Assembly: GCA_028753945.1 (NCBI GenBank)
Contig: JAPNXP010000014.1
Coordinates: 3,348,001-3,412,000 of the forward strand
Length of the DNA: 64,000 bases
From: Hexactinellida sp. DTS-2022
Lineage: Eukaryota > Porifera > Hexactinellida
Direction of reading: 5' to 3'
Shown: positions 26,004 to 59,800 of the stretch, piece after piece
Layout: each line of letters opens with the position of its first letter
How positions within the stretch are numbered: the stretch's first letter is position 1
Translations under genes and position numbers: made by a program
Notes under the pieces: generated by a model
The model's database searches: none
What the model was told of the DNA's origin: nothing
The model's input: only the letters and a program-made list of their open reading frames with translations

Positions 26004-26154
26004 CAGGGTTTTTTAAAGTTGAGACCTTGTTGTAACTCAGCAGCGGCCTTGGTGTAACTCAACACTGCAGCGGCCGCGGCCGACCCGAATCGTGGTGTAA
26101 CTCCAAAACATTTTTGTGCAAAATTTACACCAAGATCTGCCTTAAAAAACCCTA
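26004..26154. mobile_element. 151-bp hAT-like MITE
   Basis: CAGGGTTTTTTAAAG at the left and CTTAAAAAACCCTA at the right are flanked by a perfect 8-bp duplication GTGTATTC (25996-26003 and 26155-26162). Inside are TGGTGTAACTC words and a GC-rich AGCGGCCGCGGCCG patch. Confidence 0.9.
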
Positions 26155-26341
26155 GTGTATTCTATTTCCTGAAAATAGTGGATTTTATACTATTCGAAAA
26201 ATATTGTAAAAGTCTGCGCCGATTGAGGACTACATCCTCCAGGTGAATGGCTCGATGCGCCCCTGCCATTCGAGTTACCCAGTGATCATCGATTATTAAT
26301 AGTTGCAGTTATAAACTCTTCTAAGTCGTTGTTTATTAAAT

Positions 26342-26752
26342 AGGATCCTTCGGTCTCGGTCGCATTTGCGACGGATCGATGCTACGCACCTCAAGTTAAC
26401 TGCCGCTATGCGGCCTTACTCCTCACTAAAAGATTGATAATAGAGTTAGTAAACATCCCTTCCTACCATTTCCATACTTTTAACTTGTTTAGCTATAATA
26501 CCCGTGAAAGCAAACTTCTAGGGTGATTTTGTGTTTTCATTAATCTGTTACCTTTTTGTAAACAACAATAATATTCTTATCAAAATTTAAAAAATGCGAA
26601 ATTGAAATCAGCATACCTATAATATAATTTGGAAGTTTGTTTCTATCTCGTATATAAATGCAGTTTCTATTCCCCCATCACTTCAATGCAACCTTGACAA
26701 ACAAACACACACATTGGTCACACACACACAAACAAACAACATAATAATATAG
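26342..26752 (-). mobile_element. Short non-autonomous relative of the Helitron at 33752-38778
   Basis: Read on the minus strand, the 3' end has the GTCGC-AAAT-GCGAC stem followed by CGAGACCGAAGGATCC, nearly the same as the Helitron's 3' end (GTCGCAAAGCGACCGAGACC). The 5' end has the same TTTGTTTGTGTGTGTG-rich segment. The body (GTATGCTGATTTC, TAGGTAAACAAG-like words) is shared with 43777-44213. No coding capacity. Confidence 0.6.
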
Positions 26753-27013
26753 AATCACCAATAGTTTCTTAAAATCCTTAACCGCTGAATGTTCTCGCCT
26801 AAAATATTTTGAACGCTTAAACTAAATAAATCCTAATTAAATCCAAAATTGAAATATACAATATAACCTCATTAGTACGAACACGGATAATGAGAATTTC
26901 CGGTAAACTGTTGAACCCAATTTTTGGACGCTTCAAAGAATATTGAATTCAAATAACACCGGTTATTACCAATTTGTAAAATAGCCGAAAATAGAAGACA
27001 CGAAAAGTGATTA

Positions 27014-27207
27014 CAGTCAGGTTCTTTTATTATGAACATTCAAGGGACCAAAAATTGTGTTCATAATAAAGCGACTTCATAATAAGCGAACTCAATTCAA
27101 TACAAACCCTATGTAAGTTGTTAAATTGGGACCATAGGGCTTGTTCATAATAAAAAATCTTCATATTAAGCATATGAAATCTTGTTCACAATAAGCAGAC
27201 CTGACTG
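27014..27207. mobile_element. 194-bp pogo-type MITE
   Basis: TA plus CAGTCAGGTTCTTTTATTATG; right end CACAATAAGCAGACCTGACTG plus TA. GTTCATAATAA(A/G) words recur inside. Nested in 26859-27533. Confidence 0.88.
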
Positions 27208-27282
27208 TATTTGATTTATACAGTACTAACTGACTTTACATTATATTGAGATACATATAAATTACTAATTGGTTAATTAAAT

Positions 27283-27482
27283 CAGGCACGTAGCTAGAGT
27301 ATGTAATTCAGGGGGGCAAGTTTTATGTTGGGGGGGCAAGTGCAGGGAGTCGGGGGGGCAAGTGGGGGACGAATCACTCTATTTACTATAACGAACACTT
27401 CCTAATTCTCTTGGGAGGGGGGGCGAGGAGTACTTTTGGGGGGGCGGTCGCCCCCCCTTGCTCCCCCGTAGCTACGTGCCTG
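27283..27482. mobile_element. 200-bp hAT MITE
   Basis: CAGGCACGTAGCTAG at the left and CGTAGCTACGTGCCTG at the right; exact 8-bp duplication AATTAAAT (27275-27282, 27483-27490). The inside is very G-rich on one side and C-rich on the other (GGGGGGCAAG against CCCCCCCTTGC). CAGGCACGTAGC ends are well known in animal hAT MITEs. Confidence 0.93.
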
Positions 27483-27629
27483 AATTAAATTAGTACTTAC
27501 TAAGCCGAAGTACGTGCTAACCGAGTTATACTGTAGTACATATTTGTATACAAAAACAAATTAACTTTGTCAATTAAAGTTTAATCAAATGTTTAATCTG
27601 ATATTCGTAATCAGCATAAGATTTCCAGT

Positions 27630-27750
27630 CATTATAGGGGTCACATGACCATGTTTGGGAGGGAGGACATTCCTTGACAACGCTGGAATGCAACACATTC
27701 CATTCTCAAATATCGTTTCTATCCTATCGAGTGACCCCTCTTTCTTCATC
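27630..27750 (-). repeat. Interspersed repeat with paired GGAATG/CATTCC words (copy 3)
   Basis: The reverse complement shows GGGGTCACTCGATAGGATAG, GAGAATGGAATGTG, GCATTCCAGCGTTG, AAGGAATGTCC and ACATGGTCATG, the same order as at 12700-12860 and 18655-18785. Confidence 0.5.
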
Positions 27751-27787
27751 GCACAGTCTTTGAGAATAAATATGCGCATATAAACAC

Positions 27788-30700
27788 TCTACGAGGTCAT
27801 TTAACAAGTAATGGCGAGAGCGGATTTTGTCCGACACTTTCCTACAATTTTTGGCCGCCATCTTGAAAATATTAAAATTTCGTGATTCATCCATATCCAT
27901 ATCTTTTTATAATATATTTATCTATGTCTGTGCCAATTTTCATGCTTGTATCAAAAATTGAACAATTTTATTGCTATGCTGCCCCACTAAAGGCCACGAT
28001 GTGTATTACATGTTCAATGCAACTGAATGTCAGCTATGGGTAGACGGTACTATGTTTTATGTATTACCTTGTCCACAAAATCTTTCTGGTTATTTGCAAT
28101 TCGAGGAAACTTGTGCTTGCTATTTTGATGAGTGTTTTGATTTTATTCCCACGATAGTATGTACTTATTGTAAAAGTTTTGTGGAGTGTACTCCTTTAGT
28201 GGTTTTGTTGTTGTCTGAAGTACAGCTTGAATGTAGTTTCTCGTATCAAATGTTTGGCTAGAAATATGTGTTTTAATTGGAGATGACTTGAGTATTTTTA
28301 TTATTTGGGTAAAGGTGTTAACAGATGAGTACAATGCTGATGGTGTTTTGTGCTTAGAAAGTAAATGTACTGATTTTTGTGTTAGAGTTGAAAGTGAATT
28401 AAGTGAACTTCCACCTCCTCGTTCTCACAATATGCCTAATATTTAAACTGACAACTTTGAAACAGAAATGGTGATTGAAAGTTCTGAGTTCAAATTTCTA
28501 ACTAATTTGAGTAGTAACTGTGGGGAGTTTTATCTCGAACTGAGTGAGTGGGATATTATTTGTATTACCAATTCTACTGGTATAACTTCATTGGTTAGTA
28601 ATTAGACTAATGTTTTTGCTGAAAAATGTTGTTTTAAAGTTTATAAATTATTGGTTGAAGAAACTTGATCGTCGCAAGGTTAATAGTCCTTTCTTCAGAG
28701 CTAGCGCGTCTTGTAAGTTTGAAAATTGTCGATATTATATCTTTTATAATGATGTTGCACTAAATTTGGAAGATAAAGACATACTTGACAAGATTTACTC
28801 AGAAGGATATTTGTCATTTCAACACACAGATGGGCAGAGTGGATTTAGTCGCCATCTATCTTGCAGTGAGCGTAATAAAAATGGATAATTATTAGTGAAT
28901 AATTCGGTTAGTAAAATTTCGAATAAACAGTTTAATAATTCAAGTTATCAGGGTCTCTGTTATGGTAATTTATGATTGTTTCGGAAAGTTAAAGCTGAAT
29001 TCAAATCTAAGGAGCTGTTTTCTAATTTATATATGGAAGATGTAGCAGCAAACAAGCAGTATTTCCGTTATCTACTCCCTGAATCCCCCTTACCAGGCTA
29101 TGTTCAGTAATTTGTACAAGATTCTTTCATTATTCATATGTGTCCTTATAAGCAGCAGGAACTTTTTAAAATAATGAATAGTAAAGATATTGTCTTGAAT
29201 TTAGATGCGACTGGTTCTCTTATTTCTAACCCTCCTTCCTGTTCTAAGAAAATAAATTACTATGCCCTTACAATACAACACCCGGGGTTTTCCACCATGT
29301 CCCATCCCATTAGATGAATAGATAAGCAGCGATCATAACACTCCTGAGATCTCACACTTCTTGAATAAATGGTGTTTGAGTGTAAAATTATTTAACTTAA
29401 TGGAGTTAAAAATTATATAAGTTGGGATAGATTTTAGTTGGGCTATGATACACAGTACATGTTTAGCGTTTGACAAATTTACTATCTTAAATTATCTCCG
29501 ATATTGTTTGGAATTTATGGCTGATAATGAGAACTTAAGTGATAATATTATAACAGTCCTCCATCTCTGCTCTGCTCATCTCATGCACAGAATTAGATAT
29601 AATTTAAATATGAAATTCAAATTAGAAAAGGCTTTAAAAAGAATAATGTTGCATCTATTTGATCGTATGGTTAATTGTAGACAAATGAATGAAATTAATC
29701 AACTTTTCGGGACAAATGAATGAAATTAATCAACTTTTAGATTTTAGTTTAATTGCATATTTAGCATGCTCCATATGTCTATAGTATTCACTGAAAGTTT
29801 CATTCAGAAATTCCAAATACTTTGGGAAATATCAATACCTGAAGTACATTCTTCTCCATATTAATGTAAAGATTTAAAAATAATATTTTAGTCAAAGTGA
29901 TGGCAACTTGCGCAAGCCTAGAAAAAATTTCATTAAGTATTACATGTTTTCTGGATTTAGCATTATTCAGTATATACTTGTAGATAACCTAAGGCTGTAA
30001 ACAACGTTTCAGAACAATAAAAGAATTCTTATAAGAATTTGAATCAAAGAAATGAAAAATAACCATGAGTCATGACTAGATTTCACTTACAAGACTAATA
30101 ATTCATAGAGTATGCATTAATTTGATAGTAAAATAGCCTTAGATTATACACTAGTATATCTATTGAAGAAATAAAGCTGGAGCAGCGCTTATCTTCTGTG
30201 GTTTAATTGTTACACTTGCGCACATATTTCAGTCAGGTATAGGAATTTAATATTACGCAATATGGAACTATAATCAATCACTCGAGCGAGTATTATTCGA
30301 AATCAATTCTGATGGTGGATTTGTTATCAGTATAGTGTAGGCTTTTATTGATATAACTATGGATTTTAATGGAACAAAAAATTTAAACTTGGGGGTCGAG
30401 CCTGTAGTAAGAAGCAAACTAGTCTTTATTGCACTAAATTTCAACCAACTAGAAGAATGTATTAAGGCGGAGATTAATGTTAGTAATGATGCCCCCAATT
30501 AATTCGAGGATGTGACTGAAGTTAAGAGTAATGCTGTAACTTACAGAGAGAAATCCCTTTTGGCAGACATTTTGAAATGATTTATTGTAATACTTTATTC
30601 TCAATAAGTGAATTCGAAAATAATTCGCAACTTGATCCTAGTGTATCTTATAATCCCCAGATAGTTGAATTTCTTCTCACGTATTATATGCCATTATTAC

Positions 30701-31851
30701 CGTTGTGGAGTGGAATAAATTTTTGTACAGTTAATTCGTCAGAGAATGCAACAGATAAATGCGATTGTTCAGAATCTGTTCAGAATTGTTAAACACAGCA
30801 TATTTAATTCAGAGATAGGGAGAAGAGATGCTGATTTCATCAGAACAGTTTATAATAATATAGACGATAGAATCGCTGCGTTTAATTTTGCTTTTAGCCC
30901 ACTGGCTCATAAAGTGTTTAATGTTAAGAAGAGATTACACGTGGAGAATGAAGAGGAGTGCAAAGAGGAGTGGTCTAGATGTAAGAAGAGTAATTTTGTT
31001 ATACTAAACCAACTGTGGATAAAGTTAGTACGATATTTACAAATTTCAAGTCTAGTAAAAGTTTTAATGTAGAAAATTTAATTTAACGTTCAACAAACAG
31101 GGAGGTAGCTGCTTTTTGGAAGAAATCCAGTCTATGTTGTTACAGTTTGTGATGGTATTTTGCGTGCAAGTGAAGTTGAAATAATTAGTAATTTAGATTT
31201 AGTAGAAATGGCTACTATGGAATATAAGTGACCGGCATTCCAACCACTTACATGCCGGCGACAGAAGAAGTTATGTGAGATTTAAATTTACAGTTGTCGG
31301 ATTCTACAAATTCCATAAGAGATAATATCCTAGCTTTTCCTAATAAAAAAGAATATGTTCCTTGAAGTATTTGCGAATTCCTGGAGATGGAAATTGTTTA
31401 TTTGCATCATTATCATACTGGTTGATAGGAAAAATTGATAGTTTTAATTTTGTACGGTTGAAAGTTGTAGAGAATATGGTTGGTAAGCTGGAGGAAGCAT
31501 GCAATAAGTTTATTACCTATAAATTCCCGAAAATGTAATTAACTATCGTAATGTGGCCGAAGATGTAGTGAAATCAAATATGAAGAGGAATTCTACGTGG
31601 GCTACTGATGTGGAGTTATTTGCTACGGCCTTATTACTACAGACGGATATTTGGGTATTTAGTTCATACATGGGTACAAGTGGATGGTATTCTCAGGTAG
31701 AGGGGTTAAACTAGTTGATACTTTTGAATCTCCCCCAAGAAATAATGCAGGCTCTATCTATAATAATCATAATGGAGACATTATGAACCTATATTACGGC
31801 TGAATTTTATATCTACGAGGTAATCAATTAATTAATTGATTACCTCGTAGA
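27788..31851 (+). mobile_element. DDE transposon carrying an OTU-like protease (decayed)
   Basis: A 4.06-kb block whose coding remnants all run on the plus strand. TCTACGAGGT at 27788-27797 is matched inverted by ACCTCGTAGA at 31842-31851, a candidate 10-bp terminal inverted repeat bracketing the gene. The right end is itself part of a 46-bp palindrome (31809-31854). I cannot see a convincing target duplication, so the superfamily assignment rests on the protein: an LDATGS/DFSW...CSAH DDE-type transposase reminiscent of MULE- and KDZ-like enzymes. Confidence 0.6.
27976..31800 (+). pseudogene. DDE transposase with CxxH motif and C-terminal OTU-like domain
   Basis: In order: a cysteine-rich N-terminal part (27976-28260; MLCCPTKGHDVYY, CACYFDECFDF); a finger-like region at 28610-28888 (FFRASASCKFENCRYYIF, then SGFSRHLSC); DSFIIHMCPYKQQELF and IVLNLDATGS (29110-29220), with a probable first catalytic Asp; IDFSWAMIHSTCLAF (29424-29470), probable second Asp; VLHLCSAHLMH (29555-29590), the C-x2-H of MULE-like enzymes; LLTYYMPLLPLWSGI (30672-30718) and NAIVQNLFRIVKHSIFN (30756-30805), where such proteins place the third acidic residue; then an OTU-like domain with IPGDGNCLFASLSYWLIG (about 31377-31430) and TWATDVELFATALLLQTDIWVFS (31600-31665). 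OTU proteases remove ubiquitin-type modifiers with a Cys-His pair. The Cys is present; the usual His near NGDHF reads NGDIM here. About ten or more stops and shifts; inactive. Confidence 0.65.
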
Positions 31852-31854
31852 TAT
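31809..31854. repeat. 46-bp perfect palindrome at the transposon right end
   Basis: ATATCTACGAGGTAATCAAT followed by TAATTA and the exact inverse. Its outer half doubles as the candidate terminal repeat of the DDE-OTU transposon. Confidence 0.95.
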
Positions 31855-32470
31855 TATTTAATTAATCACTATAGTATAATTAGATAATTAAAGAAAATTT
31901 CCTTTATTAATAAATAATTAATTGTTGTATACAGAATGCTATTCGGTCAGGAATAACTCCTTGGTATATACAGTTATCTCCCATTATATTCAACTACTTG
32001 GACTTCGTTAAATCGGGAGTTATCTTTTATCGATGTAATTAAAAGGATCACTTCCAACTTATCTTTTTAATTCCATCGATAGAAGGATAGAAGAATAAAA
32101 TAATTTCGGGCTTGATAGTGCAAAAGATTTCGATTTTGATGTCTGCAGACAATTAACTAACAATTATAAAGCCACTCTCTCTCCATTTATATTGGCCAAC
32201 ATTTATAGTGGTAAGTTATATTCTGAAAATAAATATGTGGTTATTTATACATATTATATTTTACCTTCTAGTTCTTAAAACAAGGCTAATAAGTATATTT
32301 ATGGAGTGAAGGAATTGGGTAAATATGATCAATCCAAGAGCTTCGGAATTGATACAAGAGCGAATTATCTTATGGATTCAATTTTCTTCTTGCATTTGTT
32401 CATAATTATCACCTACAAGTTATTGTAACAGCCAGAATATTCATTGTTTTCAAGATTCTGTTTACTATAT

Positions 32471-32794
32471 TATAGGAAATTAACGCTCCATGAAATTAAC
32501 GCCAATTGGAGCTGAACATTTTCAAATACATGAAATTAATGCGAATATATTTTATAATTAAATTTCATGATTATTAATCTCCTGATTGAATACTATTATT
32601 GTGCCCAAATAGGCTTCCAATCTACTTGATAGACATGGTATATCCTTTCAAACTAGTTGCACACCTGAAAATATGTAGCTCGGAAGTTTGTCATCCATTA
32701 TACTTTTGCTAAATACGTAGCAGGAAATTAAGGTCATGGAAATTAACGCGAAGGAAATTAACGCGATTTGGAGAAATTCGCGTTAATTTCCTAT
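32471..32794. mobile_element. MITE with TATAGGAAATTAACGC ends
   Basis: TATAGGAAATTAACGC at the left; GCGTTAATTTCCTATA at the right. Further ATGGAAATTAACGCG and ATGAAATTAACGC words lie inside in the same orientation. A TA target fits the Tc1/mariner/pogo group. Confidence 0.7.
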
Positions 32795-32799
32795 AATAA

Positions 32800-33250
32800 G
32801 GTACATTCCAATAATATATTTTACTGTATAGTGTGAATATAGTTGCAATATCAATTTGCTATCATTAGTAGAAAATAACTAGAAACTCAATACTAGAATG
32901 GGAAGGAACTAAGAGGAAGCTAATGAATTGTGTTACATTACGTAGATAGTAATATATATGATCTACACTAATAGACTATGATATAATGAAGGTAGGCTTA
33001 GCAAAAATAATGAAAAAATCGAATTTGAAACCTATTGGATAAAAAGAAAGAAATTCTGAAAGAAATGACTAGCGAGCCCTGTTTTCTTTTCGAGGGATTG
33101 AATAAGAATATATCATAGAAAGTACCTGTAAACTTTGAATCAATTCTGATTGTATTTTATCTCGGAAAATTGAGCTCAAAGTTTGAAAAGGAAAAAATAT
33201 AAACAGAGATTTACACCATTTTTAAAAGACTTATCTGTCTATTAGATATG
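32800..33250. other. No gene seen
   Basis: AT-rich, no open frame of note and no repeat ends that I can pair. Confidence 0.5.
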
Positions 33251-33253
33251 GAA

Positions 33254-33751
33254 CTAGCGCGCTTCGCTTGCTAGATCGCTTCGCGGCAGAACACAACCAC
33301 ACACCAACCGCTTCGCGGTTGGTGTGTGGTTTATATACTCCTAATATTGATTATAAAGCGTAAATAGGCCTAAATAGTCAAATTTAACAATGTGAAATTT
33401 TAATGATTACGTCATCATGCGATAATGAGTCAGCATAGTGGCGATCTGGCGTGACCAACGTGTCCGCACCATTAATGTACATGTTCCATTAAATTTTCAG
33501 ATTTTTATCTCTTAATGGGCGCGAACTATGTGCGATTAAGTGAATTTTCAGGGTTCTCGAAATGTGACAATGAAGTCATAAGTTGTCGAGGTGTGAGAAT
33601 ATTTGAGTGAAAACCTAAACTTGTTGGCGGTTGCCAAAAATTACCCCTATGTGCCAAAAATCACATTTGAAACCGTCCAGTTTCTTCAATCAACTCGGAA
33701 CATACAAACAAATATATATATACACACATACACCCACCCTTGTGTTTTAAT
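33254..33751 (-). mobile_element. Short Helitron-like element D, abutting the Helitron 3' end
   Basis: Fourth member of the CTAG-T family and the best preserved. On the minus strand it starts TATTAAAACACAAGG at 33751, continues through the GT/TA microsatellite and the perfect CCACACACCAACCGC/GCGGTTGGTGTGTGG hairpin, and ends GCGCGCTAG at 33254 followed by T. Its first base directly follows the terminal GCTCGTAT of the large Helitron, in the same orientation, giving a head-to-tail pair. Confidence 0.75.
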
Positions 33752-34121
33752 AATACGAGCCCTTCGGTCTCGGTCGCTTTGCGACAGTTCGGCGCTTCAC
33801 GCCTCAATTGACGACCGCTGCGCGTCCTTACTAACCTTGAAACTAATTATTTATAATTATACATCTCTGTGGTGTATTATATATATTCCTCATAAAGTCC
33901 CCTTAATTAATTAGAATAATTTAGCTTTGCATAAATCGATGATATAATTTATAAATTGACAAACAGACAATAATGATTTAAGTGATTAAATTGATTAGAT
34001 GATTGAAGATAAATAAGTTGATTAAGCACAAACGGAAAGTCTTAGTCAGATGGAGTCATGGGAATGCGGGGAATAAAAACCCGTTTACCCTTATGAACAC
34101 CTGTAGCAATTTCAGGGTCAA

Positions 34122-37100
34122 TCATGTGATTAGGAATGCTTTTACAGTTAACCGAGTGCCGTTACACATTCCTTGAGTCGGGTCAAGATTACGCAATAAA
34201 ATAATAGAAACGTAAACCTTAAGGTACAGTCGGTGAGGAGGCAAACCATTTGGTGTAATAGAATTTAGGAACTCAGTGGGGTACATTGCCGCTTGCTCCT
34301 TACCTACCGAGTCTGCGCTTAATAACGTGCTCACTTCCCCTGGTATCAGTTCCATAACGTATTGATTTATAAAGTCAGTCGTATCATTCTTAGGACACAT
34401 CAAACTACGGCGAGAAATATAATCTGGATTATTATAGTTAACTTTAATATCGCCGTAAGTAGCAGAAACCAAATCAGAAACTGACTCGCCTGCTACTACG
34501 AATTTGTGGTCTACGTGAATCATATGATTCTCATCCTCGGGCTCAGTGCCTTCTCCAACTCTCAAAAGGAATTTGGAGAAGTCACTAACTTGGGATGCAT
34601 CACCTGAAGATAAATTACGGAGTCGCATGTTTATAGAGAGTTTAAGAACCTTAACATGACTCCAGAGAGGCGATCTGTTCAGACAGGCTGACACAACATC
34701 AGCTTCGGTCCCATGTCTGATTACAGGTAGAATTTGACGGAAATCACCTCCAAACACAATAACCTAGCCACCGAATGGGATATTGCATGAACAAAGATCT
34801 CTCATGTACGGTCGATACACTCTGCAGCATGTCTATGTGTCATAGGAGCCTCGTCCCAAACAAACAGTCTGGTGCGCTGAATTAACCTAGCTAAGGCGCT
34901 CTGTTTGGAAATACAGCAGACAGAGATTTCATTCAAATGGATAGGGACCTTCATCCTAGAGTGAACAGTCCTACCACCCTGTAGGAGCAGAGCTGCTATA
35001 CCGGATGAAGCCATGGCTAATGCTATATTACCCTGTGAACGGACCGTGGATAACAGCGTGTTATAAAGGAACGTTTTTCCGGTCCCTCCAGGTCCATCGA
35101 TAAAGAATGCATTAGAGCACGATTTACTATCGTTAACAGCTGCAATTATAATGTTATAAATACTCAACTGGTCAGCATTAAGTAGAGGCAAGTTTTGACT
35201 CACTATATCATTCTGTTCACTAACATTATAATCAAGCTCATCCATAATGATACGCGATTCCTCATACGGATTACTCACATTAGTAGGGATCGGCATTCCT
35301 GGGTAGTTTCCATGTTTCTGCAGTCGGTACTCAAGATCAAGCAATACACTATTTAAGATATGCTCGTACATTAGCGAATACAGTTCTAGCACGACACAGG
35401 AAGTCCTCAGCGAAAGAGGGTTTGTACTTATCCCAGAGAGCGAGTGGAATAGATGGCTCAACAAACAGGAGAATAGTCACGAATAGCTGACGCAACTGTG
35501 CTGGCATAGAACAGATAGCTGCCTCTGCCAACACTGATCAACTTCCTGATCATCCTCCAGCAGACCTCGTCTCAGACATGCCTCCTTATAGGTGTCACAG
35601 ACGGTGCCATCAGGGAGAGTACGGATGTCCTGAAAGCTCGTGCAACATGTGACATGGTTCAGCAGTATCCTTAGGTAATAACGTGGTCCCTCCCCTGAAT
35701 GAGCTGAGTACATACGGGCTATCACTTTACCATGCCCCTTAACTCTAAGTTTCCATTCACGCTTATTTTTGTTCCACACAAACTCGTCAGCGAAATTCGT
35801 GTAAGTGAGTTCTAGCCCTGCAGGGAATTTCTTATTAGCTTCGAACCAAGCAGTTAGTGTGGTATGCTTCTGTCTGCTCAGAACATCTCCAATGACCGCG
35901 TCAGCAGAGAAGACCACAGACTGCTCATTCTCAAGATGGAGAGCTAGCCTGACCACTTAGGGGAATTTACCATGAAGGTCAAAGGCGAATATACGGTAGC
36001 AAGCTTCCGTGGCAGAGACGTATCGACCTTCTACGTAATTAGCGACCTCGTCCTTACGCTTAGGTACGCTAGTATTCGCATTTTCACCTGAACTGAACTC
36101 TACAATGGCTCTATCGTGACCCTTGAACACATATTTGAAGATATACTTAACAGCAGTAACTGTGGTACAAAGCTCTAAATTAATGTGCGCATTGTACTTC
36201 AACAGCAAATAGGGATTGTGTGCGACTACCCACCGATTGTCAAGAAGAACCTTCCCACTCGCACGCTACGGCCATTATCCCTGCGGCGGTAATTAGGGTA
36301 CCCATTATTAGCAGTGCTGGTCACGGAAGAAAATTCTTTCGGGAATCGCTTAGAGCATTTACCATCACGCATGCAAGCGGCGCTTTTGTTAGACAAACCA
36401 CATTGACCATGCATTATACAGCGCTTCACAATGTTATGTAGCCTCGGTTTAAGAACTGTGTCCGGGATCTCAGCACACACTATGTTATCATACGCAGACG
36501 GGTCTCGCGGCTTATCCTCATCAGTAAGTATAATTAGAATATGAGCATGTGGTAGGCCCCGCTTTTGGAACTCTATGGTATACACATACGCAAGAGGCTT
36601 ACAAAAATTGTGTTTTTTGGTAATATCGCTCAATAATTCACGCAGTTTAAGGCGAAAGACTCGAACTATTAAATCAGGGCGATCGCTCGCTTTCTGATTT
36701 AATAGCAGCGCGGACGTAATCTCCTCCCATTGTGGATTACAGGTAAATGTAATGAATAAGTCTGGCTTACCATATTTCCTGACTATAGCCATAGCGTCCT
36801 GTTACAGTTCAAACATTTGTCTGGGACTACCGGTGTAAGAGGAGGGGAGAACAATACTGCGTCCCAGCTCACCGGCGTCCGTATCGCCTGAGGACAGAGC
36901 GTCAGCCAGACCGCTGTAGAGATCACTCCTGATCTGCCTCTGGTTGAACTTTATGTAGTTCAGTCTCTGCTGCTCTATCTTAGCGTACATATCCACCAGG
37001 TACTGATGGAACAGTCTCCCGAACATGTGCAGGTAGCTCAGGCTGCTCCGGACCATCAGTCTGTAGGAGTAGTACTCCATCGGAGTGATGCAGCCCTTTC

Positions 37101-38385
37101 CTCTGCTGTGAGGGAATTTAAGCCGCCAGCCATCCTCACCTAAGAGAATCAATATAATAATGCACAGCAATGAATAATCTCAATAAATCAGCAGTACTTA
37201 CCTCGAGGGAATAGGAGCACATAGTGCAGGGGATCGTAGGCGCGATGGGTCTCGGTAATGCGCTGCAAGTCCCCACTCCGCGCGTGCAGGACAATGTCTC
37301 TGCTGGCTTCCAGCTCGTTATATCCGTCTCCAGGCATGATAACGGTGATCTCAGGTGCAGTAGGGGCGTTGTACCGACGGGGATCAGATCTAATCGTCAT
37401 CCTCACGTCTGCACCTCGATGCTCTCGCATAACGTCTATTCCTTGTCTGAAGAATGAGACATACGGGTTGGCGTCATGCAGCATAGCTTGTAGACACGGG
37501 AGCTCGGGTAGAGCAACCCCACCCAGAGCCTGCTGGCGATACTCCGCTTCAGCCTCAGGGGTACCGTCATGGATGTATATCTGAGCAAATGCCGGGGCCT
37601 GTCCCTCTCCCGGCATGAGCTGTCCAATGTAGTGGTGCACAGTCCCGGGAATACGGAATGTGTACGCTCCTCTCTTAGCATTGGCGAGCTGCTTATCCAG
37701 GTTAACTCCGAGCGAGGCGAAAGCAAGAGCAGAGTTGTACGCTCGGATGTTATCTCTGAAAGCTCTCCCTCTGGTGTCACCCGCTGTCAGCAATTGAGCA
37801 AGCAGGTCAGGCGGCGTAGCGAAAGAGGGAAGAACAACATTGGCCTGTCCACAGCAGAGTGGAAACTTTGGTTATAATTTGGTGCTAGTGGATAATTTAT
37901 CACTTTCCCAGGATTTCGCTTCAAAAAAAGTGCAGGAAAAGTCATACTGTCAACTGAATACTCGGCGCTAAAGTTATCAGTAACTTCACAGGCAGATTGT
38001 GACCGAGCTAAATTCAAAGCAGACTTAGAAATGAGGAAAATACCATACAACTCAACCCTTTCCTGCATACGCTCAGCATCCTGCTCTGCTGTCTCTCCTG
38101 CTCTAGGCATGGTAGCATATTACCTCTAATTGTCAAGGCGCGCAGCAGTTTCCTCGTAAGTTTGAGACTATGAATAGACCGACTGGTATTCCCTCTGATT
38201 ATCGAGGCGCGCAGTACGGTCACTCTCCGACTCTCCATCTTGTCTAGAAGACTGAAGCTGTCTTTGCGTGTCGAGACGGAGTCGGTTCTGCTCTGGAGTC
38301 TCGTTAGCTCGCTCCCAACGCTTCCGATCAGCCGGAGTTTTAAATCTGTTCTCCCCTGAATCCCTGGCTTCCGTTTTGGAGGCAT
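34122..38385 (-). pseudogene. Helitron Rep/PIF1-helicase gene
   Basis: In order on the minus strand: a charged N-terminal region with ANETPEQNRLRLDTQRQ and SDRTARLDNQREYQ repeats (38350-38170), typical of Helitrons; the AYNSALAFASLGVN and AYTFRIPGTVHH region (37793-37188); a 62-bp intron (37140-37201); EDGWRLKFPHSRGKG onward; then the Rep (Helitron_like_N) domain with PDLFITFTCNPQWEEI and the HUH motif in GLPHAHIL (36792-36226); YIFKYVFKGHDRA; and the PIF1 helicase with Walker A GPGGTGKTF, Walker B VWDEAPM (35464-34802), FGGDFRQILPVIRHG, and C-terminal LDPTQGMCNGTRL (to 34122). The large pieces are well preserved, but about seven stops or frame slips separate them. Catalytic motifs survive, so decay is moderate. 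Confidence 0.88.
37140..37201 (-). other. 62-bp intron in the Helitron gene
   Basis: Minus-strand donor CTCGAG|GTAAGTAC and acceptor TTCTCTTAG|GTGAGG. Removing it connects LLFPRG to EDGWRLKF, the expected continuity in Helitron Rep proteins. Strong consensus sites at both ends. Confidence 0.8.
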
Positions 38386-38779
38386 AATAATTATTGAATC
38401 TAATTTGTCAATGTAAAGAAAAAAAATGTATGTTCTGAAAAAAAGTATTTATAGTCAGGCATACTAAAAGAAAAACATGCAATGTAATACATGCACAAAT
38501 GATTGGTTAGATGAATTTATTTTCAATCAATCAAATTGCAGCCTCATAAAATCTTTCTATTACAAACCCTCGAATTTAATTGCTGACAAATTTTGTCACC
38601 TTCAAATGTAAATATTTCTCTTCAAAAACCAATAGATCGTTGTCGCAGTGCAAAATTACCCCTGTATACAAATTTTCAGCTTTCTAGGACTCGTAGTCTT
38701 TCCAATTAATTCTGGACAAACACACAAACAATCAAACAACAAACAAACAAACATCAATTCCTATTTTAATATATAGATA

Positions 38780-39350
38780 GATTTTAGAGAATCTAATGGC
38801 ATTGAGGTAAACCTCCGTGTCTCCTCTATTGAATGATACCAAAATAAATTAGATCCAGTTTGATATTGGATAGGAATTGACACTTTGGACTAACCCTACA
38901 CAATGGACTTTTCAAAATTATGCTTGCACCCTTTTTCCCAACTTCAAGTTTGAATGTTTGTAACTCAAAATTTTAGGAAATTTTAAATAAAATTTAAATC
39001 ACATTGACCTCCATTTCTCCAAAGTATGATTACAAATTTTTAATGCCAACCCTACATTGTATGATAAAAATACTAACTGAATTTTTTTTAAATTAATCAT
39101 ATTACTGTTAACCTCCGTATCTCCTCTCTCGAATGATAATGAATTTATTCAAATCTGTTAACTAAAGGTGAGTCAAATATGTGACTGAAGTGACCCTGTT
39201 CGAATACCAAGCCAACTTCACACTCGTGTAAATAGCCATGTTGAAGCAACTACTAATGTACCTTGGGGTTCTGGAGGTTCTCGGGACCTGCTCAATATTT
39301 CCAGATTATAAAAACAAAATCTGGAAATATACATTCGAACAAACGCGATT
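38780..39350. other. No gene seen
   Basis: AT-rich. The phrase ACCTCCGTGTCTCCTCT with TGAATGAT (about 38813) recurs as ACCTCCGTATCTCCTCTC with GAATGAT (about 39110), an unexplained imperfect direct repeat some 300 bp apart. Confidence 0.4.
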
Positions 39351-40467: not shown

Positions 40468-42050
40468 TTGATAGTTTCGTTAGTTATTTTTCTAATTCAA
40501 TGGTGGAAGATAGTAGCTAGTGCATCTAGACTTTTAGATTTATTTGTTATTGAAAAATTAGCAAATACCGGTAAATGCTCACTATGTTCCAGTTCATTCA
40601 CATACAACATTCAAAAGACTGGTACCTCTCATATGTCACTCCACATCACTAACAAACTTCCGGGGGAGTATAATAAGATGAAGAGGAGGTTAGAATGCAG
40701 AGATGATACTCAGTCTAGTATTCTTAGATGTTTTAAGAAGAAGACAGGTCTATCAGCATTGCCAGAAAGAAGACGCTTAGCAATGTTAATATCTTGTGGA
40801 GATCATGTTTTGCCTTTGAGTTATTTTGAAAGCGAATTTACAAGGAGCCTGCTTCGGATTCAAACCGAATGGATTTGAGAGGAGAAATAAGATTAATTGC
40901 TGATGAAGTCCGGCGGAGATGAAAGCCGAATTGCAGAGTACATTTATGACAATCGTTTGTGATGGGTGGAAAAACTGCCTGACAGGTATGTTAAATATGT
41001 TTACTCTAAATATATATTGATAAAATAATACAAGTATATGTATATTTTGAATTAAAATGTTATTTTGTAGGTGACAAGTTTGTATCTTTTTTGGGATTTG
41101 CTAACTCAAGTTCAAAACCAATCTATATCACTTGCCAAATAGTGAAAGACAACTCTTCTGATGCATTTCTGGAAGCTGGTCGAGTAGCAGTAAACACTGT
41201 CGAAGGGTGGAATTCCAAAGTTATTGCATTACTCGCTGACAATGCTCGGTCAATTCAACTTGGCCTGCAGAAATTGTCTAATGAATGTGCTGGTTTGTTG
41301 GTATTGCGGTATGCAGCACATGTTATGAACCTTTGCATACGTGATATCTTCACAGCACTTGACATATTGAAACAACATGTAGCCAACGGTACTGACCCTC
41401 GTTATGTTGATACTAGATGGAATTCAAGAATTGTTTGGATGGACAACTAATTTTGAAACTTGATGATGAGCGAGAAAATGGAAAATTAAATGCTAGTCTG
41501 CAGAGAACTCGACCGATTCTTGATGTTCTTAATATTGCTCAGGAAGTTACAACTACATGGCCTACAATGATGTGCAAGTTTGAGGAACTTCTGGAGACAC
41601 TACAAGAGACAGGATTCGCTGAAGTATGTACAGTGATTGAGAAGAGGAGGTGGATGCTTGAAAATATTGTTATTAATCTTATAAACTGGTTAAATGGAAA
41701 GACTGAAAATATTGACTTCGAAATGACCGGAAAATGGCTTCAGTTAATGAAAGTTCGTTCAGATTTTGATAGGCTATATGCTGCCAGGGAGTTTGGTGCT
41801 GGGTTGGAAGGTAATGCAATCCAACATTACCCTAAACTAAAAGTATTTGAAGATCAAATACTCAACAAAATTGCAGTCAATGAGGCTTCGGTTGAACGAC
41901 TGTTTTCTCGACACAAGCAAATTCACTCTCCTCTCTGTGCATCCTTGGGAATGATCTAGTAACTGATTGCTTACTGATAAGAATCAGCAGACAGTCATTG
42001 CTACAGATAACACTGACATCATTCTACCTCTCTATGAGGATTATTAGTTT
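40468..42050 (+). pseudogene. hAT transposase, BED zinc-finger type
   Basis: The first exon has a BED finger (CSLCSSSFTYNIQ followed by TSHMSLHI) and a helical linker, then, after a frame break, MTIVCDGWKNCLTG with the catalytic-region Asp. An 85-bp intron (40986-41070; AG|GTATGT and TTTGTAG|GTGAC) follows. Exon 2 gives DKFVSFLGFANS, VIALLADNARSIQLGLQ (second Asp), LRYAAHVMNLC where most hATs have CxxH, VDTRWNSR, and after another break the C-terminal dimerisation domain VNEASVERLFSRHKQIHSPL and NDLVTDCLLIRIS. Few breaks, but the part between DTRWNS and the dimerisation domain is shorter than usual for the family. Non-functional. Confidence 0.8.
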
Positions 42051-56843: not shown

Positions 56844-59800
56844 ATGCCAAATTGTTGTTCTGTGCCAAATTGTAAAGGTCATTATCCTGGATCGGATCTT
56901 CTCATTGCCAAAAGATGCCGATCTAGCTAAAACGTGGTTGAAGCAGATATGTCGTGAGGATGTTTCTGAATTACGAACAATTTATGTCTACATTAAACAT
57001 TTCAGAGAAGAAGATTTACTTTTGACCGTCGATATACCCCAACCTGATGGTTCAGTGAAAACTGTTTCCAGAAGACCAGCCTACCTACCTGGTTCTATTC
57101 CCCGTATATTTGAATTCCCTACTTATTCAAGGTTAAATGACGCCATCCCTCAGCGATTGGATCTTGATAAGAAAGAGCAATGCTTCTTTCATCAGGTATT
57201 TAATATTTATATTGAGTAACTAAAACTTAATTAATCAGATACCCAAATTTCATGCAATTAATTTATACAAATTGCAAATTGCCAGTTTTGCGATTTGCAT
57301 AAACTGCATGAAATTTCGTATAAATATTGTTATTCATGCATATTAGAGCAGATTTCTGAACTGTGTCCTAATCGCATCTTCCTACAGTCCTTGTAGAACT
57401 GAATTATACACACTGCACACATACATAAGAACTCAATATTTTATTTAAATATATTTCTTTTATCAAGGGGATTACAGATAGCAAGCTTGATTATGAACTT
57501 GAACTTGAAAGATTCGCTGTATCAACTTTTGAAGAATTTAAACTTAAAATTTCAAACTGCACACTACCAGAGAATTGGTTCTTATGGTATCCCTCTAATA
57601 CAACTTTGAGTATATTTAAACCTCGGCTTTCTGGATCACTTCTTAACGTTGAATCATATATCCTTATAGATTCAAGTCTCTGCGCAAAGGGTTAGTTTAT
57701 ATGCTTACATAGATTATAAATTGGTTTCTCTGTACCCGGAATTACTTACTACATTAAAATATATATCTACAAATATATATATAGAAAATATTCGGCCTAA
57801 TATGTTCGGAATCCCTTACTAACCAAAACCACTGTACTTTTTGTTGCAGCCCAAGGTCCATTTTTGATTGACACTCTAATTTACCCCTTCGTAAGTTGGA
57901 AATTATAACACATTTATAAAATTCGTTCCTTTAGGATTTTATGAAGATGTTCAGGTGGCTTTATCTCCGCAACACGTTAAAGACATTCGTGAAATTGATT
58001 CATATATCAAAGGTATTTCGAGCTACCATCAAAATTCTTCCCAAAAAAGAAATCAAACAAACTATTGTTAATCTTCAATCTTCAATTGATAAGTTTGATC
58101 TTAATAATGAACCTGATACATTATTAACAATCCCTCGTCTCCAATTTATATTATGCCAACTTGAAAATATCTTGCTTCCCAAGCAAAGATACAGATACAA
58201 TGTGATTACTCTTACACTTGCTTTAAAGGCCCAACTTATTTTATTTCTCCTGCATGTTATAGTTTTCTTCAAACTTCTCAATGTCTTACACTTCCACATC
58301 AAAGTACATTACGAAATCTTACTTCAAAATCTGGTTTGGAATATGATTTTAGAGAATTTCTAATTAAATCACGGCAAAGTATTCTAAAAACAGCGTCAGC
58401 TCGTATTAAACATCGATGAGGTTTATGTACAGTCTGACTTTAGCTATAAAGGAGGAAAGATTTATGGCTCATCCAGTTCGAATGTAGAAGTAGCGGCAAA
58501 AACTGTACTTGCTTTCATGGTGACTAGCCTTTTCGATAAATGGAGTGAAATAGTTCGTCTATATCCACTTGCCTCTACGGATGCTAAAGAAGTCTTTGAG
58601 ATAGTGACGACTGTCATAGCTGATATTGAAAAGTGCAATCTCAATGTTGTGGTATTATGTTCAGACAACTTACCGCTAAATCAAAATTTATTCAAATTAT
58701 TCTCGCACAAGCATGTAATTGAACGATCAGTTCCCCATCCTTGTGACCCCAATCGTCCTTTATTCCTCATTTTTAATTTGCTACCGTGTTTATAAATTGA
58801 CTGCGAAGGTTTGCTGGCCTACCAATTTAGAGAGGCAAAATGTTAATCTTGCGTTGGCTGTGTATAGCGAATCGACAAACGCTACCTTGAGGCTAAATAA
58901 ACAAATTCAGGTTGCTGCTATTGTAACTCAGACTCAAGAATTTCTAGATGTTATAATTCATATTTAGAAAATCTTTAATGTTAACAGTCCAATGAAAGGT
59001 AACCGCTTAAGAGATTCCTTTTCAAACCCACTCATTAATAATGATGAACGTTTTTCATTTCTTAGTAATGTTGTTCAATGGCTAGATACTTGGAAATTGC
59101 TACCTGGTAAGGTTGGAAAGTTAACACCCCAAACTTTCTCTAGTTTCAGACATTCTTGTTTATTACTTCCTCAAATAGTTAACTATCTTACAAGTGACAC
59201 ATGTGGTTTCGCTTATATTCTATCCTTCCGTCTTCAGAACGATCCCCTTGAACACCGTTTTGGCATTTATCGACAAATGTCATGTGCCTGATCAGTATAG
59301 TATATCAGTCCTCCAAATTCTTGAAAGTGGGCGCAGACTAAAGCTTTCTTCAATATTAAAGTTATTTCAGAAGGATACTTCTGGAGAAATGCCACTTAAA
59401 GACTTTATTAAGACATTTACCTCGGAAGAAGAACCGGTTGAAATAACTCCATTAGAAGATTTCTTGTCGCTGTTGGACAATTCTAATCCCCTTCCTGAAG
59501 TAGATAAAACTACTCTCCTAGCATTGGCATTTTGTAGCTGGATTCGCTGTCCAATCTACATTCTCTAAATACAAAGATAGGTGTGGGGAATGCTTTGCTA
59601 GTTTAACCAAACAGAGAGATATTCATTTCGAAAATCAAGATAGTGTGAATCTACTCATTCAATTAACAGATCGAGGAGGATTAAAGTATCCAGCAATGGA
59701 GGTTCTAGAATCGTGCGTTCTCCTTTGGAAAATCTATACGTACTGCAATTGAAGAGCAACCGATATTATTCAGCAAATTTATTTCATCAACCCCGCGAAA

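Follow-up and report, generated by a model that had tools for sequence, protein, structure and literature searches.

A terminal-inverted-repeat transposon family of a hexactinellid sponge with an OTU-like protease domain fused in frame to its transposase and, in some copies, a 2A-like leader

Results

A decayed transposase-OTU element interrupted by a Helitron

The DNA analysed here, hereafter the window, is a stretch of 64,000 nucleotides from the hexactinellid sponge Hexactinellida sp. DTS-2022 (assembly GCA_028753945.1, contig JAPNXP010000014.1, positions 3,348,001 to 3,412,000 of the forward strand). On its plus strand it carries the remains of a DNA transposon encoding a DDE transposase followed by an OTU-like cysteine-protease domain. 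An initial annotation, made from the sequence alone, had described a MULE/KDZ-type element (MULE, Mutator-like element) with both parts in one coding region. All the motifs on which it relied (LDATGS, DFSWAMIHS, CSAHLM, PLLPLWSG and the OTU pieces) are present, on the plus strand and in the order claimed, within 27962-31800. The single coding region does not exist in the window, where these motifs are spread over five stop-bounded frames, but it does exist in intact copies in the same genome, among which the copy at locus L029 serves as our reference.

The fragments of the window copy, all on the plus strand, can be aligned along the L029 protein. An open frame at 27962-28261 covers part of the N-terminal region of the transposase and by eye resembles the L029 protein from about residue 187. 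The first catalytic Asp (in LDATGS), which corresponds to D604 of L029 and is found in all eight family proteins compared, lies in a fragment at 29111-29317. The second catalytic Asp (DFSWAMIHS) and the CxxH motif (CSAH) share a fragment at 29421-29723, recognized by its frame and its genome matches. An insertion of about 690 bp, seen as a gap in blastn alignments with L021, L022, L026 and L029, occupies about 29711-30403. The C-terminal transposase fragments (30532-31072) include PLLPLWSG, in the frame 30532-30792, and INAIVQNLFRIVKH, in which by eye a Gln replaces the third acidic residue, the catalytic Glu of the family (NAIVENWFRIVKH in L029). The OTU domain follows in two overlapping broken frames, 31347-31538 (IPGDGNCLFASL...) and 31523-31714 (WATDVELFATALLL), the two halves matching PF02338 with E values of 0.0073 and 1.1e-4. 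The stretch 31329-31541 (G000:C6:3379329-3379541) is 69% identical to the OTU domain of the intact family (E 3.8e-26), and by eye the end of the domain is out of frame.

The boundaries first proposed, 27788-31851, were not borne out. Pieces matching L029, L022 and L026 by blastn start at 27990-27992, the main ones with 87-92% identity, and the decayed element, with a nested insertion included, runs from about 27,990 to 39,227 on the plus strand. Its right terminal inverted repeat (TIR) is split into an inner part at 33042-33253 (minus strand), 86.9% identical to positions 496-709 of the L029 TIR, and an outer part at 38770-39227 (minus strand), 78.2% identical to positions 3-506. Because the matches of these two pieces follow each other along the L029 TIR, we placed the right end at 39227, where the tip reads ...AACTTCACACTCGT (the blast match reaches 39225). 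Between them, at 33254-38769 on the minus strand, lies the nested insertion, which carries Helitron genes: a PIF1 helicase (PF05970; 34122-34763 and 34802-35476) and a Helitron_like_N domain (PF14214; 36226-36801). Since no left TIR was found within the window by blast with the L029 TIR, the 5' part of the element has been lost; by blastn and alignment, the missing part comprises the left TIR, the leader exon described below and about 187 codons at the start of the main frame. Judged from its sequence, the window element is a decayed, dead copy that a Helitron has interrupted; elsewhere in the genome its family is young.

The initial annotation had taken TCTACGAGGT for the inverted ends of the element, which we reject. 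As an exact 10-mer in either orientation it recurs in only two of the 20 fetched copies described below (L022 and L024, one site each). Its right-hand pair is a perfect 40-bp palindrome, TCTACGAGGT...ACCTCGTAGA, at 31812-31851, which forms a hairpin where the coding region ends, and its left-hand copy (27788-27797, plus strand) sits in another repeat, which matches L024 6812-7293 in reverse, pieces of window 26096-27968 matching L024 9901-6812 in that orientation. Together, these three observations rule it out as a terminal repeat. The equivalent hairpin in L029 (6596-6638) is similar, starts within the last codons and extends beyond the stop. Its position over the last codons of the main frame is conserved in L026, L027, L029 and L030 (100-nt fold energy of -16 to -19 kcal/mol), and it is possibly a 3'-end or regulatory feature. 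The true TIR tips read ATGACTGTGAAGTT, or ACGAGTGT in other subfamilies.

Intact copies are TIR transposons with a single transposase-OTU frame

We searched the 112-Mb assembly (18 contigs) with a 100-residue transposase fragment of the window and used the best 150 of 299 candidates in its own genome. The best non-self match is 82% identical, and many of the 150 matches listed lie within open frames of 1,000-1,349 residues. Twenty stretches of 9.9 kb (L021-L040) were fetched for comparison. L027, L028 and L030 share 99.7-99.8% identity with L029 across 6.7-7.1 kb, and L027, L029 and L030 have TIRs of 711-712 bp (L028 is without one end). The best intact elements are thus 7.1 kb long, with 711-bp TIRs and a single frame of 1,260 codons. 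Twelve copies were examined for target duplications; three are without one end, and the nine with both ends located are all flanked by duplications, of 9 bp in five and 8 bp in four. Since they have TIRs and target duplications, the copies are insertions of a TIR transposon, and the insertions of the L029 group are evidently young. The TIRs of L036 (520-1688 and 6891-7542) give many inverted matches shifted by ~173 bp and seem to contain internal tandem repeats, in the manner of foldback-like ends.

As the initial annotation had proposed, the OTU domain of this TIR element is fused in frame to the DDE transposase. Single frames with both parts are found in L027, L028, L029 and L030 (1260 residues each), L026 (1251), L036 (1349), L038 (1254), L039 (1255), L035 (1197) and L040 (1078). 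In L029 the OTU domain occupies residues 1111-1213 of the 1,260-codon frame (E 3.5e-8), with the transposase motifs upstream in the same frame. The fusion is kept in eight intact proteins from six subfamilies, a set that includes two near-duplicate pairs, and the other seven are 34-49% identical to the L029 protein. PF02338 is listed at E<=10 in all eight and exceeds its curated threshold of 23.3 bits in six, L034 (22.9 bits) and L035 (15.9 bits) falling below it. The DDE and CxxH residues (D604, D679, E900, C723 and H726 in L029 numbering) are identical in all eight, and C1116 and H1245 of the OTU domain are likewise invariant. By eye, a Cys/His-containing region between the leader and the transposase may bind DNA.

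The two parts also lie close together at many places in the genome. At 100 of the 150 listed transposase places a listed OTU match follows on the same strand at no more than 6 kb, and in 97 of these the distance is 755-1609 bp; among the matches listed, control pairs numbered 4 for the opposite strand and 0 for an OTU match upstream on the same strand. These counts drew on 150 transposase matches, 150 OTU matches (at least 151 exist) and 54 of the 150 matches of a second OTU list.

In a PDB sequence search, 10 entries matched at E<=1, nine of them on the OTU part, where 6dx2 (an entry named RNA-dependent RNA polymerase) scored best with an E value of 1.1e-4, and one, weakly, on the transposase part (6yxx mt-LAF14, E 0.12). 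No viral relatives appeared in scans of viral contigs or in tblastn of phages; PADLOC gave no match, and NCBIfam nothing near any cut-off.

The OTU domain is conserved by selection and has diverged with the transposase

Changes are most numerous in the pairs of L029 with L026, L032 and L021. In these three, the ratio of nonsynonymous to synonymous substitution rates (dN/dS) of the OTU domain is 0.03, 0.05 and 0.04, based on 15, 13.5 and 14 synonymous and 2, 2.5 and 2 nonsynonymous changes, respectively. The transposase gives higher values in each pair (0.19, 0.17 and 0.40). In subfamily pairs with enough changes, the OTU domain is, by these ratios, under purifying selection. Transposase and OTU distances among the eight sequences are correlated (Mantel r 0.976, one of 5000 permutations being as high). 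An old, single transposase-OTU fusion that selection has maintained would be the simplest reading.

A number of observations weigh on the other side. The DGNC Asp of the OTU domain (D1113) is present in seven of the eight proteins and replaced by Asn in L034, and the acidic residue two positions after the OTU His is Gln in L037. Fifty of the 150 transposase matches have no listed OTU partner; some of these places are fragments, and the shortfall is partly an effect of listing about 150 scored candidates per list. Change-poor pairs give higher OTU dN/dS values: 0.64 for L036/L035 (2 synonymous and 5 nonsynonymous changes), 0.26 for L038/L040 and 0.13 for L038/L039. In L029/L026 the synonymous rate (dS) of the OTU domain exceeds that of other regions by a factor of about two to three, a hint that subfamilies have recombined. 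Given the two near-duplicate pairs among the eight, six lineages inform the Mantel test, and the FastTree topologies of transposase and OTU disagree.

The family is MULE-like

A DDE triad with CxxH after the second Asp is a MULE signature. The family has this arrangement in all eight proteins (C723-x-x-H726), and its duplications are within the 8-11 bp range of that superfamily. Of the initial "MULE/KDZ-type" label, the first half fits by the position of CxxH, the 8-9-bp duplications and the long TIRs. No MULE, Mutator or KDZ profile matches, and KDZ membership is unlikely. PF10551, PF20700 and PF00872 gave no match in the eight intact proteins at E<=10, a level at which HMMER filters may drop weak matches. 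A transposase piece of the window scores 13.6 bits against the PF20700 Mutator profile, below its cut-off of 26.5. Nothing was found by hhalign against single PF20700 (L050) and PF10551 (L051) sequences and the KDZ pieces of L047, a comparison of little power that had four window proteins as controls. The family is MULE-like by motif order, duplication length and long TIRs, and we withhold formal filing given that no profile matches.

Two other superfamilies were considered and found no support. For KDZ, the eight proteins have no PF18758 match at E<=10, and the seven KDZ places listed for the genome lie elsewhere; for Ginger1, no integrase-core profile is among the families listed at E<=10 for these proteins. 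A second pairing of protease and transposon is suggested at three of the seven KDZ places (L043, L047 and L049), where frames resembling a Ulp1-type protease and a PHD finger sit on the opposite strand beside pieces of KDZ transposase. Other multi-copy OTU frames, of ~226, 227 and 446 residues, were not seen beside the present transposase family and show no steady link to PF10551 or PF20700 (3 of 26, 0 of 13 and 0 of 7 near one, among the matches listed); they may belong to other mobile elements.

A leader exon ends in a 2A-like octapeptide

Upstream of the main frame, intact copies carry a short frame, MISIELWRAHIGLHCSRR...SAFIACIVAILLVIGGIEINPGP, that encodes a hydrophobic leader with a StopGo/2A octapeptide at its end. 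The leader is followed by a 58-bp gap bounded by GT and AG, and in-silico splicing joined it in frame to the transposase in six of the seven copies tried, giving products of 1,326 residues in L027-L030, 1,317 in L026 and 1,071 in the broken L031. The 19-residue hydropathy peak of the leader reaches 3.0 in L029 and L021 and 2.6 in L037. The octapeptide, of the form (D/G/C/N)(V/I)ExNPGP, is found in 11 of the 20 loci L021-L040, as GIEINPGP or GIEMNPGP in L021, L022, L024 and L026-L032 and in the context GDVEVNPGP in L037, which belongs to a divergent subfamily. A further locus, L060, has GDIEVNPGP 1.55 kb upstream of a 1,077-residue transposase frame. Beyond the window's own subfamily, such a leader thus occurs in two or more divergent ones.

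Against a general role for the leader, motif and profile hidden Markov model searches found none in L023, L033, L034, L035, L036, L038, L039 and L040, and four sampled subfamilies show no 2A leader. In the leader of L025, NPGP is not intact. Among the 150 listed transposase matches, 42 have a listed leader within 5 kb upstream, and the leader is therefore not universal.

The leader appears to be shared with other mobile elements

The L029 leader peptide matches 102 places in the genome. Thirty-two of these have a listed family transposase at most 5 kb downstream, in 16 cases at 2.02-2.10 kb, and another eight have a PF20700 Mutator-like domain 532-621 bp downstream; at three of the eight, leader and domain list an open frame of the same size (912, 879 and 546 residues). 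The leader of L037 matches 19 places; a family transposase follows at 10 of these and a PF20700 domain at one. Among the 62 remaining places of the L029 leader, 25 are followed on the same strand, at a distance of 6-14 kb, by an Exo_endo_phos_2 endonuclease, with 0 control pairs, and 18 of the 25 endonuclease partners lie in frames of 1,652-1,709 residues. This pairing took in 54 of 71 endonuclease matches and 62 of the 102 leader places, 37 of the 62 being without a partner. The endonuclease-linked elements are probably long retrotransposons of the type without long terminal repeats (non-LTR). A by-eye comparison with the 94 NACHT gene matches listed revealed no link to leader matches.

In L052, L053 and L054, frames upstream of PF20700 domains start with a hydrophobic 2A-like leader (GGVEVNPGP, GGVEENPGP and GGVEEHPGP, respectively). 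Ten leaders picked by hand keep NPGP in seven cases and have it altered in three (L054, L057 and L061). When eight leaders chosen for their NPGP were aligned, M, R, I, G and E were invariant outside that motif, and those from different families were 28-42% identical to the L029 leader.

Other features of the window

Two further transposon remnants lie downstream of the element. A TNP-like RNase H domain (PF21787) at 58388-58795 is the remnant of a P-element-like transposase. Transposase-like frames at 41010-41959, of which 41010-41450 has no Pfam match at E<=0.01, presumably are hAT-like, judging by eye.

Discussion

A model for the transposase-OTU protein

The anatomy of the family is close to certain and its mechanism is not, and as a whole we regard the following explanation as the best one, probable if only just. 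In the window's subfamily, the two exons of an intact element would yield one protein, with the leader followed by the Cys/His region, a DDE/CxxH RNase-H-like transposase and the C-terminal OTU domain. The transposase would move the element by cut-and-paste. The OTU domain, whose deubiquitinase function is inferred from its sequence, would strip the transposase or its complex of ubiquitin in cis, and the transposase would thereby escape proteasomal turnover long enough for cut-and-paste. That the OTU domain protects its own transposase from ubiquitin-driven turnover is a tentative proposal, to which we would give slightly less than an even chance. The broader idea of the initial annotation, that the element counters ubiquitin-dependent control, is plausible. 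At the other end of the protein, StopGo would release part of the chains without the leader, to the cytosol and nucleus, and chains retaining it would enter the secretory route, so that the nuclear dose of transposase would be limited.

Several other accounts of the OTU domain have to be weighed. That transposase and OTU are unrelated neighbours, parts of separate genes or elements, is suggested by their different frames only as long as the window is viewed alone; in intact copies the two share single open frames, and with the steady same-strand spacing at 97 of 100 places this alternative, which the initial annotation had itself named, is refuted and its probability practically nil. A second account has the OTU domain as a protease that processes a transposase polyprotein. 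It would suit a domain at the extreme C-terminus, after a linker that is poorly conserved in the alignment, but no di-glycine or other site is conserved by eye in that linker (L029 residues 946-1084). OTU enzymes, moreover, mainly cleave isopeptide bonds after Gly-Gly, and self-processing is very improbable. Hardly better placed is a catalytically idle, ubiquitin-binding OTU module. The loss of the DGNC Asp in one of eight proteins (L034) and the Gln two residues after the His in another would fit it, but the invariant Cys and His and a dN/dS of 0.03-0.05 in three comparisons make it improbable. The strongest competitor, unlikely and still to be reckoned with, is action in trans: the OTU domain would trim ubiquitin from host histones or repair factors at the break, and repair would then favour the element. 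It would leave the same anatomy and the same selection as action in cis, and the present data do not separate the two. Frames that we take to be Ulp1-like and PHD-like stand beside KDZ pieces at three of seven KDZ places (L043, L047 and L049), and a role in repair has been proposed for the OTU and Ulp1 domains of Ginger1 (PMC2836005).

For the leader, the alternative is that it merely serves as a signal or a membrane anchor, or is an inert relic, and that its NPGP causes no skipping. This is a serious possibility, if on the doubtful side. It would accord with a Gly at position 12 in the window's subfamily, with the altered NPGP of three of the ten sampled leaders and of L025, and with the subfamilies that have no leader. 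On the other hand, 11 of 20 fetched copies and seven of ten sampled leaders retain the octapeptide, although in the eight leaders chosen for NPGP the identity to the L029 leader across families is as low as 28-42%, and GDVEVNPGP and GDIEVNPGP are canonical. According to PMC12846837, Gly is also the commonest natural departure from Asp at position 12 (1,207 of 1,557 inexact matches), and this variant is functional. Whether the leader causes peptide-bond skipping we judge, from sequence features, to be evenly balanced. More speculative, and in our estimate rather doubtful, is the wider picture in which the transposase would be under protein control at both ends, a 2A leader splitting secretory from nuclear output and a C-terminal deubiquitinase giving protection, and in which the leader would be a mobile module of two DNA-transposon families and retrotransposon-like elements, class I and class II elements having converged on, or exchanged, a translational switch.

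The near-identical intact copies offer a direct test bed for the long-standing notion that ubiquitin proteases serve transposons. We found no report of StopGo/2A in DNA transposons in the open-licence literature. If the leader skips, it would be the first in a DNA transposon as far as that literature shows, a possible switch of transposase dose, and a shared N-terminal module linking unrelated mobile elements.

Comparison with known systems

Short hydrophobic N-terminal leaders ending in NPG/P are also known from the StopGo/2A signal sequences of sea-urchin NLRs and from the 2A of non-LTR retrotransposons, and the N-terminal 2A of sea-urchin NLRs is described as both signal sequence and recoding element (PMC4981915). 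Unlike the 26-residue sea-urchin NLR leader, the present one has 62 residues and an extra R..IG box, and it precedes a DNA transposase. The present family is like Mutator-like elements, including Phantom, in its DDE with CxxH, its 8-9-bp duplications and its long TIRs, Phantom being listed in the MULE survey with TIRs of 18-613 bp and duplications of 8-10 bp (PMC6446971). Unlike those elements, its proteins are unmatched by the Pfam MULE and Mutator profiles at E<=10, and it has the OTU domain and the leader.

Among Mutator elements that carry Ulp1 are the plant KI-MULEs. Ulp1-carrying Mutator elements have been reported in plants, hydra and lancelet (PMC2836005); they too combine a ubiquitin-like-specific cysteine protease with a MULE-type transposase, the protease being of Ulp1 type there and of OTU type in the present family.

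The initial annotation held that the arrangement is seldom discussed for DNA transposons, which is only partly right, given that OTU and Ulp1 fusions were discussed for Ginger1 in 2010 (PMC2836005) and an OTU was listed for MuDR-6_HM in 2019 (PMC6446971). In the families listed, Ginger1 transposases mostly have a C-terminal OTU or Ulp1 domain, for which a role in transposition was proposed, and, like the present family, Ginger1 elements have TIRs (PMC2836005). The Ginger1 transposase is Gypsy-integrase-like, with an H2C2 zinc finger and GPY/F, whereas the present family has no integrase profile match. MuDR-6_HM (group 14, Cnidaria), compared by description only, is listed in Table 1 of the survey with one open reading frame and "Ovarian Tumour Gene" as an extra motif, and so is a MULE-type single-frame element with OTU, as here; unlike the present family, its entry gives TIR as "None" and target duplication as "not indicated" and mentions no 2A leader (PMC6446971). 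The transposase-OTU fusion itself is thus already in print for Ginger1 and MuDR-6_HM, and the present family is a further member.

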